Assembly: GCA_031256035.1 (NCBI GenBank)
Contig: JAIRRJ010000054.1
Location: 1-41,133 of the forward strand
Reading direction: 5' to 3'
Source of the DNA: Treponema sp.
Lineage (GTDB): Bacteria > Spirochaetota > Spirochaetia > Treponematales > Breznakiellaceae
Length of the DNA stretch: 41,133 bases
In this document: positions 22,594 through 34,799 of the stretch, one piece after another
How the letters are laid out: each line of letters opens with the position of its first letter
Position numbering within the stretch: position 1 is the first letter of the stretch
Position numbers and translations under genes: made by a program
Notes under the pieces: generated by a model
Database searches by the model: none
What the model saw: the letters and a program-made list of their open reading frames with translations, nothing else
Told to the model about the DNA's origin: nothing

Positions 22594-23283
22594 TTATTGT
22601 TGTCGATTTTTGGACATTAACGATGTCATAAGCAAATCGATCATTTTGTCGGTAAAATCCACAGCCCCGCTTTTTGTCCAATATTGAGGAACAGTCCGGT
22701 TAAGGAGTACCATTTCTATCGCACCCCAGAGGGCTGCTATACAGAGGCTTGCATCAAGTAAAGTGTCCTTACTGTCCAAAACCCCCGCCTGTACCATGCG
22801 GTCAAACACCGTTTTTGCAAAACTGGTACTTTGGTAGTATTTTTTCATTTTTTCAGGATCAGCCTGGGTATCCGCCTTGAGCCGGCCCATAACCAAAAGG
22901 GCTATCCGGGGATTGGCAAAAGCCCAATCCCTGAACGCTTCAAGGCCGGCCCTACATTCAGCAAGCGGCTCCATTTTTTTTCCCTGTTTACGGGTTTTTT
23001 CGATCTTTTTGGCATTTTGCAACGAAGTTACCCGCGCATTTTGCAACGCAGTTTCCCGCGCAATTTGCGCGGAAATGGTCGCATCCATTTTTTCGATACA
23101 CATGAGCTTTATTTCCGTAAAAAGGGCTTCCTTGTCCTTGTAATAGTAGTAGAGGCTGGTGGCTGTTACCCCGCAGGCTTTGGCTATGTCCCTTGTGGAT
23201 ATTTCTTCCGGCTCTTTTTCCAGCAGCATATCAAGGGTTTTTTCCCGTATTCGCGGGGCTAAATCGGTTTCCGGTTTACTCAT
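22594..23283 (-). CDS. TetR/AcrR family regulator with octapeptide repeat insertion
   Basis: A 229-residue TetR-type repressor. The N-terminal HTH domain (about 10-58) has the usual pattern: TRDIAKACGVTATSLYYYYKDKEALF. The C-terminal ligand domain begins around AGLEAFRDWAFANPRIA. Between them, where family members usually have a short helix, is a duplicated segment ARETALQN / ARVTSLQN followed by a lysine-rich stretch. It is encoded by a 24-base tandem repeat of the dispersed element described separately. The start ATG has AAGAGG in front. It is the first gene of its operon, and a matching operator lies upstream, so autorepression is likely. The ligand is unknown. Confidence 0.9.
   Translation of the reverse strand: MSKPETDLAPRIREKTLDMLLEKEPEEISTRDIAKACGVTATSLYYYYKDKEALFTEIKLMCIEKMDATISAQIARETALQNARVTSLQNAKKIEKTRKQGKKMEPLAECRAGLEAFRDWAFANPRIALLVMGRLKADTQADPEKMKKYYQSTSFAKTVFDRMVQAGVLDSKDTLLDASLCIAALWGAIEMVLLNRTVPQYWTKSGAVDFTDKMIDLLMTSLMSKNRQQ
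23013..23060. repeat. Two 24-base tandem repeats inside tetR
   Basis: Units at 23013-23036 and 23037-23060 differ at two positions. Each contains the 20-base core GCAACGAAGTTTCCCGCGCA with one mismatch (23019-23038 and 23043-23062). The multiple of three keeps the tetR frame open. The same core occurs at 33005-33024 on the opposite strand. Confidence 0.93.
23053..23075. repeat. Inverted repeat at the edge of the tetR insertion
   Basis: The second repeat unit runs into a palindrome: CCGCGCAA at 23056-23063, one central T, and TTGCGCGG at 23065-23072, an 8-base perfect stem. It can be lengthened on both sides by TTT/AAA with one bulged C. It would form a hairpin in the tetR mRNA. Confidence 0.85.
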
Positions 23284-32080: not shown

Positions 32081-33130
32081 TTAAAACTGCACCCCAATGC
32101 CAGCCCAGGGTTTTAAGTATCCGGAAGCCTCGCCTTCGGTCAGCAGGTGAGTCAAGTCAAGACCGGCCTCAAAGTATAAATATTTGCCTGCGGACAAAAG
32201 GAAAGAGACGCCTGTATTCACATGAAAAGCCATTCCGTCCGCGGTGGAAGAAACACTCTGATCGCTGCTTGTATAACTGCCTATTTGCATACCAATTCCG
32301 GCTCCTGCTCTTATAATCAAAGCTGCTACATGACCCGCAAACCAGATTCGACCCGCAAGATTGAAATCCACTGTCAGCGTATGAGCCGTTACGCTGTGAT
32401 CATCAAAAACCCTGTCAAAAGCATACCATGATGCTGCCAGTTCAATGCCCGGATTGAAAAAATCGGATTTAACAAAAACCATACCAAAACGAAGAGCCGC
32501 GCCTGCCATCTGCATTTCATCTTCATAAATAAGATCTATGCCGCCGTAGAGGGGGAACACCGGCGTCCATGCCGGTCCGATATACACATCAACATTTTTT
32601 TCAGCATAGACCGTCTTGGATTCCGGTTCGGGAGCGTCAGGAGAAGCGACGATGGGTTCCCTGATCTCCGGTATTTGAGCGGGAAGGACTTCAAAGTTGA
32701 TCCAGTCTAATCCTGTACCCGGCCTGTCAAAAAAATCATAGGGTATAACGCGATACCGGTACTGCCCCGCCGCAAGAGAAACTTCAATAAACGGCTCTCC
32801 GGTAAATTCCCGCACTGCCCGGCGGTATTCGCCGGAATCTTCTTTTTCGATTATCACTTCGTAGCGCAGGGCATAGCCATCCACCGTCCATGTCAGACGC
32901 TGAACATAACGGGTTTCCAGATAATAGCCGCCGCTTTGCGCCGCCAGCGTTGGTGCCAGTAATAAAAAAAACAAGATCAAACCACAAACCTCACGAACCG
33001 TACCTGCGCAGGAAACTTCGTTGCATAATACGGTACGACCACGAACTTTTACTTCGACATCTTTTATAGTTCGTGTTGGTTCGTGTTGGTTCGTGGTAAA
33101 TAAAAAAGATTTGCTTTTTCTAGTTCCCAT
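32081..33130 (-). CDS. Outer-membrane beta-barrel protein with disrupted signal peptide
   Basis: A 349-residue frame from ATG 33130 (GGGG about 7 bases upstream), overlapping the FecR gene stop by 11 bases. It starts with a basic MGTRKSKS, continues through about 40 residues encoded by a repeat element, then has the hydrophobic LILFFLLLAPTLAAQ. Joining the two ends gives a textbook signal peptide, so the element seems to have been inserted in frame. A TTG at 32980, with GAGG 7 bases before it, could restart translation at the hydrophobic part. The mature protein has a beta domain (about 80-170, YEVIIEKEDSGEYRR, AGQYRYRVIPYDF), a Pro/Glu linker and a barrel ending GIGVQF. It is the last gene of the MCP 3 operon. 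Confidence 0.75.
   Translation of the reverse strand: MGTRKSKSFLFTTNQHEPTRTIKDVEVKVRGRTVLCNEVSCAGTVREVCGLILFFLLLAPTLAAQSGGYYLETRYVQRLTWTVDGYALRYEVIIEKEDSGEYRRAVREFTGEPFIEVSLAAGQYRYRVIPYDFFDRPGTGLDWINFEVLPAQIPEIREPIVASPDAPEPESKTVYAEKNVDVYIGPAWTPVFPLYGGIDLIYEDEMQMAGAALRFGMVFVKSDFFNPGIELAASWYAFDRVFDDHSVTAHTLTVDFNLAGRIWFAGHVAALIIRAGAGIGMQIGSYTSSDQSVSSTADGMAFHVNTGVSFLLSAGKYLYFEAGLDLTHLLTEGEASGYLKPWAGIGVQF
32981..33097. repeat. Mosaic palindromic repeat element
   Basis: On the plus strand the parts are ACCACAAACC and TCACGAAC (32981-32998), CCGTACC (32998-33004), the 20-base core in reverse (33005-33024), CGGTACG and ACCACGAAC (33031-33046), and 10-mer repeats GTTCGTGTTG x2 plus GTTCGTGGT (33069-33097). 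CGTACC pairs with GGTACG, and ACCACGAAC pairs with the last GTTCGTGGT, so the unit can fold into nested hairpins. It stays open in the frame of the outer-membrane protein. Confidence 0.85.
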
Positions 33131-34799
33131 ATAATATCCCCGGTTCATCAGCCTGTAAACTGGGAGCGGGAATGTCAAGGACAAACAAATTATCCACAAC
33201 CCGGCCCTGCCGTTCAATTGTTCCGTCTCGTGCCTGTGATATTGCTTCCACTTGCCAGATAAAACTGCCGCGATCCAACAGACTCAGATTGGTTATTGTC
33301 AAACCGGTGCGGTTTTCAGGCGCCCTGCGGAGAATTTGCCGCCGTCCGTTTGCAGTTTGTTGATACAGGGTAAAAATATACGCATTGGCTCCCGGCACCG
33401 CCTGCCAGCTAAAGACGACGCTCTGGCTGGACATGAGTTCTTCCAGTGTGATGACGTACCCTCCTGTAGGACGGCGGTTTCCCGGCGCGGGCAGCGGCGG
33501 AAGAGGCTCAGGCTCTATCGCAGACTGAAGGTCTACAGATTGGAGAACTGACGGCTCCGGCAATTCCAAAACAAGAGCGTTATGCGCTAATTCTTCCGCT
33601 ATGTGATGCTCTATGCGAAATGATACGGCGGACGAATAAGCTGAAGCCGCTTCATAAACAGAGGGAAACACCGGCTTCACCCGCCAATACCAAGTTCCCT
33701 GCCCAAGGCTTGAATCAGTGAAAAAGACAGCCGCTGTCTGCCGGCTAAACTGCGGGTTTTCAAATTGCGGCGTTTGAGAAACCTCAACAAGATAGCTTTG
33801 CGCTTCTTCTGTTTCCGACCACTGGAATTGCAGTTTGGGCAATTCATCCCGGTAGCGGTAAACGCTGCCCGGCACAGGGCTTAAAGGCTCCGGCGCCGCA
33901 GCCGCCGTTACGGTGAAACTCCCGGCAGAAAGCGGAGTATTTTCATAGACCAGCCGCCAGTACCAGAGGCCGACATCAAGAGCCGTCAATGCTTCATTGT
34001 TCAGGTTTTCCATTAGCTGAAAGATTTGCGTAAAGTTCCGGTTCCGGCTGATTTCAAGGCACAGGGTTTCTTCAGGTTCAAGATGCTGCCTGTTCCATGC
34101 AAACCCGATGTTCAAGGGGTCTTTGCTGTTTTTAAGAAACTTCGCGTTTTGCCGGGGCTGCGTTACCATTACCGAAGGTTCCAGCTTTTCGATACCCCCG
34201 GCATCCAGGGCAAGCATCGTACCCGAAGAAACATCCCGTACGGAACCTTCTTCAATTAACAAGGCGCTTCCTTCGCTCAGTTCCACCTTCATGCCGTCCT
34301 GCCCGGCAGCGGCATTGAGTTTTGTTCCGGGGGCTGCCTGCAATTCGCGTCCCATGATGTTAAGCGTCATGTTACCGGCAGCCCCATCCCCGCTCGTAGT
34401 AAGACCCAGATTTCCCGCGCTTAATTCAACCTGAAAACTTTCGCCGTCCGCTGAGCGCAGTATGCGTATAAGTGTGTTTTCGCCGAGTTCAATACTGTTG
34501 CCGTCAATATAAAGAGTCGCGTCTGAAAGGTCAGCAACGCGGATTATATCCCCGATGTAAACAGGCGACTCTTTGGAAAGTCTGTCCCAGAGTACGCGGT
34601 TTGCAATGCGCCGCTGGACAGTGTTGTGTTTGATCGTTATTGTTCCGATTGGTTCTTCATTTTGGGAATCCAAAGTCTGGAACAGATCGAGCCTGAACAG
34701 GTTAATACCTGCCGCCGCTACGGAAAGACACAGTACAATAACAAAAAAATCCCTGAACCGGAAAGGTTTATCGGAAGCTCTGCGCGTTATGCCGCTCAT
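33120..34799 (-). CDS. FecR-domain membrane protein
   Basis: A 559-residue protein with one N-terminal membrane helix (about 17-36) and a periplasmic body. A FecR domain covers about 50-190: IGTITIKHNTVQRR, SPVYIGDIIRVADLSDATLYIDGNSIELGENT, then glycine-rich beta repeats and SEGSALLIEEG. The rest has three Ig- or fibronectin-like modules with the motif WYWRL/WRVK (about 210-300, 310-400, 440-545) and Pro-rich linkers. In treponemes such proteins are not iron regulators; they seem to be periplasmic scaffolds. Its start overlaps the cyclase stop (ATGA) and its stop overlaps the outer-membrane protein gene. Confidence 0.82.
   Translation of the reverse strand: MSGITRRASDKPFRFRDFFVIVLCLSVAAAGINLFRLDLFQTLDSQNEEPIGTITIKHNTVQRRIANRVLWDRLSKESPVYIGDIIRVADLSDATLYIDGNSIELGENTLIRILRSADGESFQVELSAGNLGLTTSGDGAAGNMTLNIMGRELQAAPGTKLNAAAGQDGMKVELSEGSALLIEEGSVRDVSSGTMLALDAGGIEKLEPSVMVTQPRQNAKFLKNSKDPLNIGFAWNRQHLEPEETLCLEISRNRNFTQIFQLMENLNNEALTALDVGLWYWRLVYENTPLSAGSFTVTAAAAPEPLSPVPGSVYRYRDELPKLQFQWSETEEAQSYLVEVSQTPQFENPQFSRQTAAVFFTDSSLGQGTWYWRVKPVFPSVYEAASAYSSAVSFRIEHHIAEELAHNALVLELPEPSVLQSVDLQSAIEPEPLPPLPAPGNRRPTGGYVITLEELMSSQSVVFSWQAVPGANAYIFTLYQQTANGRRQILRRAPENRTGLTITNLSLLDRGSFIWQVEAISQARDGTIERQGRVVDNLFVLDIPAPSLQADEPGILYGN

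Follow-up and report, generated by a model that had tools for sequence, protein, structure and literature searches.

Two nested repeats lie in frame within the signal peptide of a putative outer-membrane protein of Treponema

The locus and its genes

The window, by which we mean the whole stretch of DNA that was analysed, comprises 41,133 bp of a Treponema draft genome. On its minus strand a FecR-like gene is followed by a putative outer-membrane protein (OMP) gene that contains an insert close to its start. The match of the former to Pfam FecR (22.3 bits) is slightly under the curated cut-off of 24, and a Pfam search of the putative OMP gene identified no family at E 0.001. The features referred to below are the following, with the two repeat families designated A and B.

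33120-34799, minus strand: FecR-like gene, an open reading frame (ORF) upstream of the OMP gene and overlapping its start (Pfam FecR, E 1.9e-4)
32081-33130, minus strand: ORF of the putative OMP gene with the insert, 349 aa
33107-33130, minus strand: original start and basic n-region, MGTRKSKS
32981-33097, minus strand: composite repeat core, family A with family B nested in it, 117 bp or 39 codons
33069-33097, minus strand: family A left arm, ACCACGAACCAACACGAACCAACACGAAC
33038-33047, minus strand: family A inner complementary arm, AGTTCGTGGT
33032-33037, minus strand: CGTACC, left half of a small loop palindrome
33005-33028, plus strand: family B unit, 24 bp, TGCGCAGGAAACTTCGTTGCATAA (match C42:33006-33024, one mismatch)
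32999-33004, minus strand: GGTACG, right half of the small loop palindrome
32981-32999, minus strand: family A right arm, GGTTCGTGAGGTTTGTGGT
32978-32980, minus strand: TTG, a possible restart codon, with GAGG at 32989-32992
32939-32980, minus strand: hydrophobic core and presumed cleavage region, LILFFLLLAPTLAA
23019-23061, minus strand: two tandem family B units (19-base cores) in a TetR-like gene (22594-23283)

The FecR-like gene ends inside the start of the OMP gene (ATGGGAACTAG on the minus strand), with ATG 33130 overlapping the fecR stop (33120-33122), just as the preliminary description of this locus had stated for the MGTRKSKS start. From this ATG the protein opens MGTRKSKSFLF. Directly after this zone comes the 117-bp core, which reads ACCACGAACC...GGTTTGTGGT and is open in frame, and after it the hydrophobic core LILFFLLLAPTLAAQ. 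The earlier reading of the element as an in-frame insertion is confirmed; its 39 codons (117 bp) separate the basic start from the hydrophobic core, in a signal peptide of the Sec type. Signal peptides and cleavage regions, here and in the relatives, were judged by eye.

Two nested repeat families

A search of the window's own genome with the inserted stretch returned 32 matches (the window included; best other match E 1.8e-18) that fall into two groups. Because parts of it match elsewhere in the same genome, the stretch is a dispersed repeat, and because these parts match different sets of places, it is composed of two nested repeats. The left part leads to a palindrome with CACGAAC arms, which we call family A, and the inner right part to family B. 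The nesting is evident from an A copy at C81:11518 of the same genome (G000), which is 93 bp long, has the loop CGTACC-ATA-GGTACG and contains no B. The window copy is 117 bp long, with B within the CGTACC/GGTACG loop (93 + 24 = 117). B lies between CGTACC and GGTACG also at C75:1896.

The inserted stretch folds better than 200 of 200 shuffles (z -3.4, and -5.6 for the C20-type copy of family A), in agreement with the palindromic character first ascribed to it. Family B DNA folds no better than its shuffles (134 and 112 of 200 were as good on the two strands), and we rejected B as a palindrome for want of a significant fold. The idea of a single palindromic element thus holds for family A, and has to be replaced by two nested repeats where the inner 24 bp (33005-33028) are concerned.

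Family A copies in this genome are approximately 59-117 bp long. The frame is open through the 117 bp of the window copy and through three other copies, of 69, 78 and 93 bp, in recognisable genes (the length of 78 bp was counted by hand from the arm start at C20:7915). The copy on C24 is 70 bp, which is not a multiple of three. In a PyrK-like gene (L005, on G000:C8) the family A element is part of a larger insertion, by eye also palindromic (CTCGCAGAGGCG type), and a family B unit adjoins the final cysteine of the Fe-S motif. A relative of the C81 gene in G010 (L358, on C40) has a very long insertion, in frame, in which ISQRRGDAEDAE-type repeats are joined by what appears to be their complement-coded counterpart.

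Relatives of the outer-membrane protein gene

Relatives of the OMP gene were identified in 29 of the 39 genomes of the genus, its own counted, and we examined 29 loci (the window's own included, L055 left out). Many follow a FecR-like gene that ends in GVLYGN or a similar sequence, and there the end of the FecR-like protein overlaps the OMP start. Orthologues without the element had been predicted, and many of these fecR-adjacent relatives indeed combine the overlapping start with a short ordinary signal peptide and no insert (e.g., L035, L038-L041, L047 and L049).

Other relatives have repeats in the n-region. The gene of G020 retains a left-arm remnant of family A, which the pattern search lists as well, and those of G016 and G021 a probable right-arm remnant (by eye, identical to the C20 copy at 17 of 19 bases). 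The G024 gene has a CACGGAG palindrome of another family (ACCACGGAG...CTCCGTGGT), and that of G036 has small palindromes strung together in frame, with a less certain start. Family A occupies the n-region of L424 (G010), another match of the OMP query. The CACGGAG pattern is absent from the window's genome but matches at 138 sites in G024 and at 165 in G036; these sites were only counted, the one that was read being L046, which came from another search. Several of the inserts in congeners are degenerate and could represent one old insertion that is decaying instead of repeated events.

Recurrence of family A at signal-peptide n-regions

A HEAT-repeat protein (Pfam) encoded on C20 of the window's genome likewise has family A before its hydrophobic core. 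Four of the five relatives compared are without A, and that of G010 has a remnant. The hydrophobic core of the HEAT-repeat protein itself (L003), right after the A copy, is encoded by a run of GTTCACT-like repeats.

We scored 62 family A elements, from the window's genome and from four others, the sites in the latter being fetched regardless of context. Copies were taken from G008, G010, G009 (minus one contig) and part of G001, other A-bearing genomes being left out, and the 60 fetched regions provided 46 elements under the scoring rule, with the other sites falling short of that rule. Open frames of at least 150 aa contain 28 of the 62 elements; nine of these 28 precede an N-terminal hydrophobic segment, compared with 464 of 31,736 background positions (1.5%) drawn from 73 family B host ORFs and not from all genes. 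The window copy is not among the nine because its open frame runs upstream, and L388 and L413 are similar by eye, but are without a Met by the rule. Within the 28, the elements on C11 and C24 of the window's genome appear to be situated in open leaders, upstream of the probable ATG, and the one at C66:8993 is ambiguous. Among the n-region hosts are a ZnuA-like protein, a periplasmic binding protein of the Peripla_BP_2 family and a FecCD permease, in which the hydrophobic segment is a membrane helix and not a signal peptide. Enrichment at N-termini is not unique to family A, since family B copies that satisfy the same rule (8 of 102) also exceed the background.

Proposed translation and fate of the insert

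We consider it likely that the insert is a selfish family A palindrome, with B in its loop, lying in frame in the n-region of the OMP signal peptide, that translation starts at ATG 33130 and that the inserted residues are cleaved off. The A element would have inserted into the n-region of the putative OMP gene, with the 24 bp of B probably entering the loop of that copy afterwards. As the insert is divisible into whole codons and contains no stop in frame, the gene stays intact. Translation most likely still begins at the conserved ATG 33130, so that the 39 extra codons would be read as protein and would lengthen the n-region. After the predicted export and cleavage the extra residues would be removed along with the signal peptide, and the mature protein would therefore be unchanged. 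The elements would be neutral passengers. A very stable hairpin near the start could lower translation.

Alternatively, the element may be an untranslated leader, with the gene starting at TTG 32980 to give the short signal peptide MILFFLLLAPTLAA. Such a restart was raised in the preliminary description, and the TTG indeed has GAGG 8 nt upstream, whereas the only Shine-Dalgarno-like match of ATG 33130 is GGGG. Restarting is thus possible in the window, but the peptide from TTG would have no basic residue before its core, and the arrangement is not general. Starts were compared in 11 n-region cases, comprising the window copy, nine more with family A, and L046, which has the other palindrome. 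A Shine-Dalgarno-like match precedes the first ATG in 10 of the 11, but in three of these (the window copy, L424 and L046) it amounts to no more than GGGG. Only in the window copy, and in none of the ten other cases, is there a match at a start near the end of the element or beyond it, and L415 and L046 have no alternative start. The leader explanation also has to accommodate the frames kept open through the insert here and through the three shorter copies in recognisable genes. We regard it as unlikely.

A regulatory role, in which the hairpin tunes the translation of secreted proteins and insertion at the start is selected, would fit the strong fold of family A and its repeated presence at N-termini of membrane or exported proteins such as the ZnuA-like protein, the periplasmic binding protein and the FecCD permease. 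It is difficult to reconcile with the 34 of 62 A elements outside long ORFs, with elements in the middle of genes (PyrK-like and, by eye, PurL-like and RimO-like) and with degenerate remnants that survive where the stem is lost, and we judge it improbable. An artefact of assembly or binning, conceivable given that the genus set consists of drafts in many contigs and that the named matches are mostly metagenome-assembled genome (MAG) records, is hardly credible for a pattern that occurs in many assemblies, with frames kept open and orthologous sites shared.

Family B in genes

The sequence GCGCGGGAAACTTCGTTGC has 135 matches in the window's genome at up to two mismatches, versus 0 for the reversed control. 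The 110 copies in fetched stretches were read; they form 89 clusters, 74 of them single and 15 tandem, with a unit spacing of 24 bp. All but five clusters (84 of 89) are within open frames of at least 150 aa, and since 1322 of 1500 random 19-mers from the same stretches are within long ORFs as well, B neither avoids nor clearly prefers genes. All six classes of frame and orientation are occupied (23, 19, 12, 11, 10 and 9). In its AAAA form the unit is free of stops in all six frames, and the ATAA form has a stop in one frame; as to stop-codon avoidance in this frame at risk, the counts are 0 of 13, versus 10 of 95 elsewhere, too small to argue for it.

Comparison of 15 host genes with up to five congeners each identified 10 that have exactly eight extra residues per unit relative to at least one relative. 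FabD, MnmA, IspH, TruA, HisC, FumA, HflX and TrkH have one unit and a clean eight-residue difference. Two units are present in Der (clean against one relative, from G024) and in a radical-SAM protein, where the pair lies directly after the third cysteine of CxxxCxxC. Against some other relatives, FabD, MnmA, HisC and Der show smaller length differences. TrmD, PurN, RNase HII, Fmt and PurL have no clean insertion length because B is located in a variable linker or in an extension of the N-terminus. The names of nine of the 10 clean hosts are backed by NCBIfam (FabD, HisC and TrkH slightly below curated cut-offs; 'FumA' matches tartrate dehydratase alpha and fumarase-type models), and the radical-SAM protein has only a distant match.

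In the best solved relatives, the eight residues at the B site are absent, as a single gap in HisC (3hdo) and as a one-residue and a seven-residue gap in IspH (3dnf). FabD, MnmA, IspH, TruA, TrmD, HisC and Der each have one strong match in the window's genome, the interrupted gene; the other matches of these seven queries are far weaker and for the most part involve the GTPase portion of a query. At L084 (G000:C52:90 and 501), B and a near-identical downstream coding sequence occur twice near a contig end, which may be a partial duplication or an assembly repeat.

Mobility and distribution of family B

One gene has B at the same spot in opposite orientations in G006 (L126, C96) and G010 (L149, C39), and is empty in a second G006 copy and in G013. 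At the DNA level the difference is exactly 24 nt, with a duplication of 0-1 nt. At one site in a histidine kinase gene there is one unit in G006 (L131) versus five in G007 (L136), with closely similar flanks. Single copies are preceded by T in 68 of 73 cases and have G at +24 in 61 of 73 (GC in 45 of 73). These flanks hint at a strict TGC target duplication, which we rejected, as the empty site shows only 0-1 nt.

Movement of A or B by RAYT was considered and rejected, since we identified no association at the nine Y1 loci looked at. Genes for Y1 transposases are present in 17 of the 39 genomes, with one in the window's genome. Among the nine distinct loci scanned, B is in none, a single short A-arm match is in three, and there is no A/B array. 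Several A-bearing genomes (e.g., G001, G006, G009 and G032) are without a Y1 match. Carriage of B by phages was also rejected, with 0 exact matches in viral contigs.

Matches to B occur in 20 of the 39 genomes, the window's own included. Most are in the latter, followed by G007 (27), G006 (13) and G010 (10); many other genomes have one or two matches, some perhaps by chance, and the reversed control has one, in G028. The exact B 19-mer is found in 32 stretches of the species collection, for which we calculate about two chance matches, and 29 of these are titled Treponema or Spirochaetia. Across the 32 loci, 28 of 36 B clusters are in long ORFs. The three remaining stretches are from Ramlibacter, Ignavibacteriae and an Oscillospiraceae MAG. 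The last (L133, Co191P1bin31) has an exact B core in another phylum, either through transfer or through mis-binning; its binning is suspect because listed Treponema MAGs also bear the prefix Co191. This prefix and others, such as Emb289, presumably denote termite samples, and one exact match is from a goat reticulum sample.

Tentatively, and at rather less than even odds, we suggest that B is a mobile micro-element suited to genes, which inserts at approximately T/TG sites with hardly any target duplication and grows and shrinks in tandem, and that n-regions are safe harbours where palindromic inserts are removed at the protein level. Because 24 bp correspond to eight codons and the AAAA form is open in six frames, neither a single insertion nor tandem growth can shift the frame. 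If the suggestion is correct, few known gene inserts that spread by themselves would be as small as B, adding eight residues to core proteins that are encoded once.

Comparison with known repeats and significance

REPs and REPINs (RAYT systems) are also short high-copy palindromes, but REPs are extragenic, whereas A and B are often in genes and form no array beside the nine Y1 loci. Family A resembles MITEs in being short with terminal inverted repeats; B differs from them in its 0-1 nt duplication at the DNA-level empty site and its lack of a significant fold. Small dispersed repeats (SDR) of Nostoc (Elhai 2008, cited in PMC3116915) are reportedly 21-27 nt long and nested in other repeats; a hairpin is common to some of their families, and they are not known for insertion into genes in frame. 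B is similar in its 24 nt, its dispersed high copy number and its nesting, and different in that it has no significant fold and is mostly in genes. PARCELs are coding repeats from palindromic DNA too, but they are tandem amphipathic repeat domains and not single in-frame insertions in housekeeping genes (PMC2996958).

In mode of working the repeats resemble Rickettsia palindromic elements (RPEs). RPEs are described as approximately 150 bp long, nearly half of them in ORFs (PMC10969869), and RPE-like protein-coding palindromes are cited for Wolbachia and Methanocaldococcus (PMC2996958). The preliminary description likened the element to RPEs, which insert inside coding genes, and the comparison is apt: RPEs are palindromic repeats that lie in frame in many unrelated genes (PMC10969869, PMC2996958), and so is family A. 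It has a long stem, but is shorter than the RPE; 28 of its 62 elements are in ORFs, two or three of them perhaps in leaders, and most compared relatives are without A. The treponeme repeats differ from RPEs in being spirochaetal, mostly about 60-130 bp long, with apparently different arms and recurrent at n-regions. Family B is far shorter, at 24 bp, and without a significant fold.

Among the literature matches listed, outside which most subscription journals fall, we found no report of such repeats in treponemes or of palindromes in signal-peptide n-regions. As far as these searches show, the 24-bp six-frame unit and the recurrence at signal peptides are new within the literature searched, and in-frame gene-invading repeats as such were already known. 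Known from Rickettsia, Wolbachia and a few others, repeats of this kind now extend to treponemes, including their single-copy core genes. Family B provides a natural catalogue of protein sites that tolerate eight extra residues and a test case for the spread of so short a DNA unit. In the OMP, signal peptidase may be what removes the insert, in place of processing of DNA or RNA.
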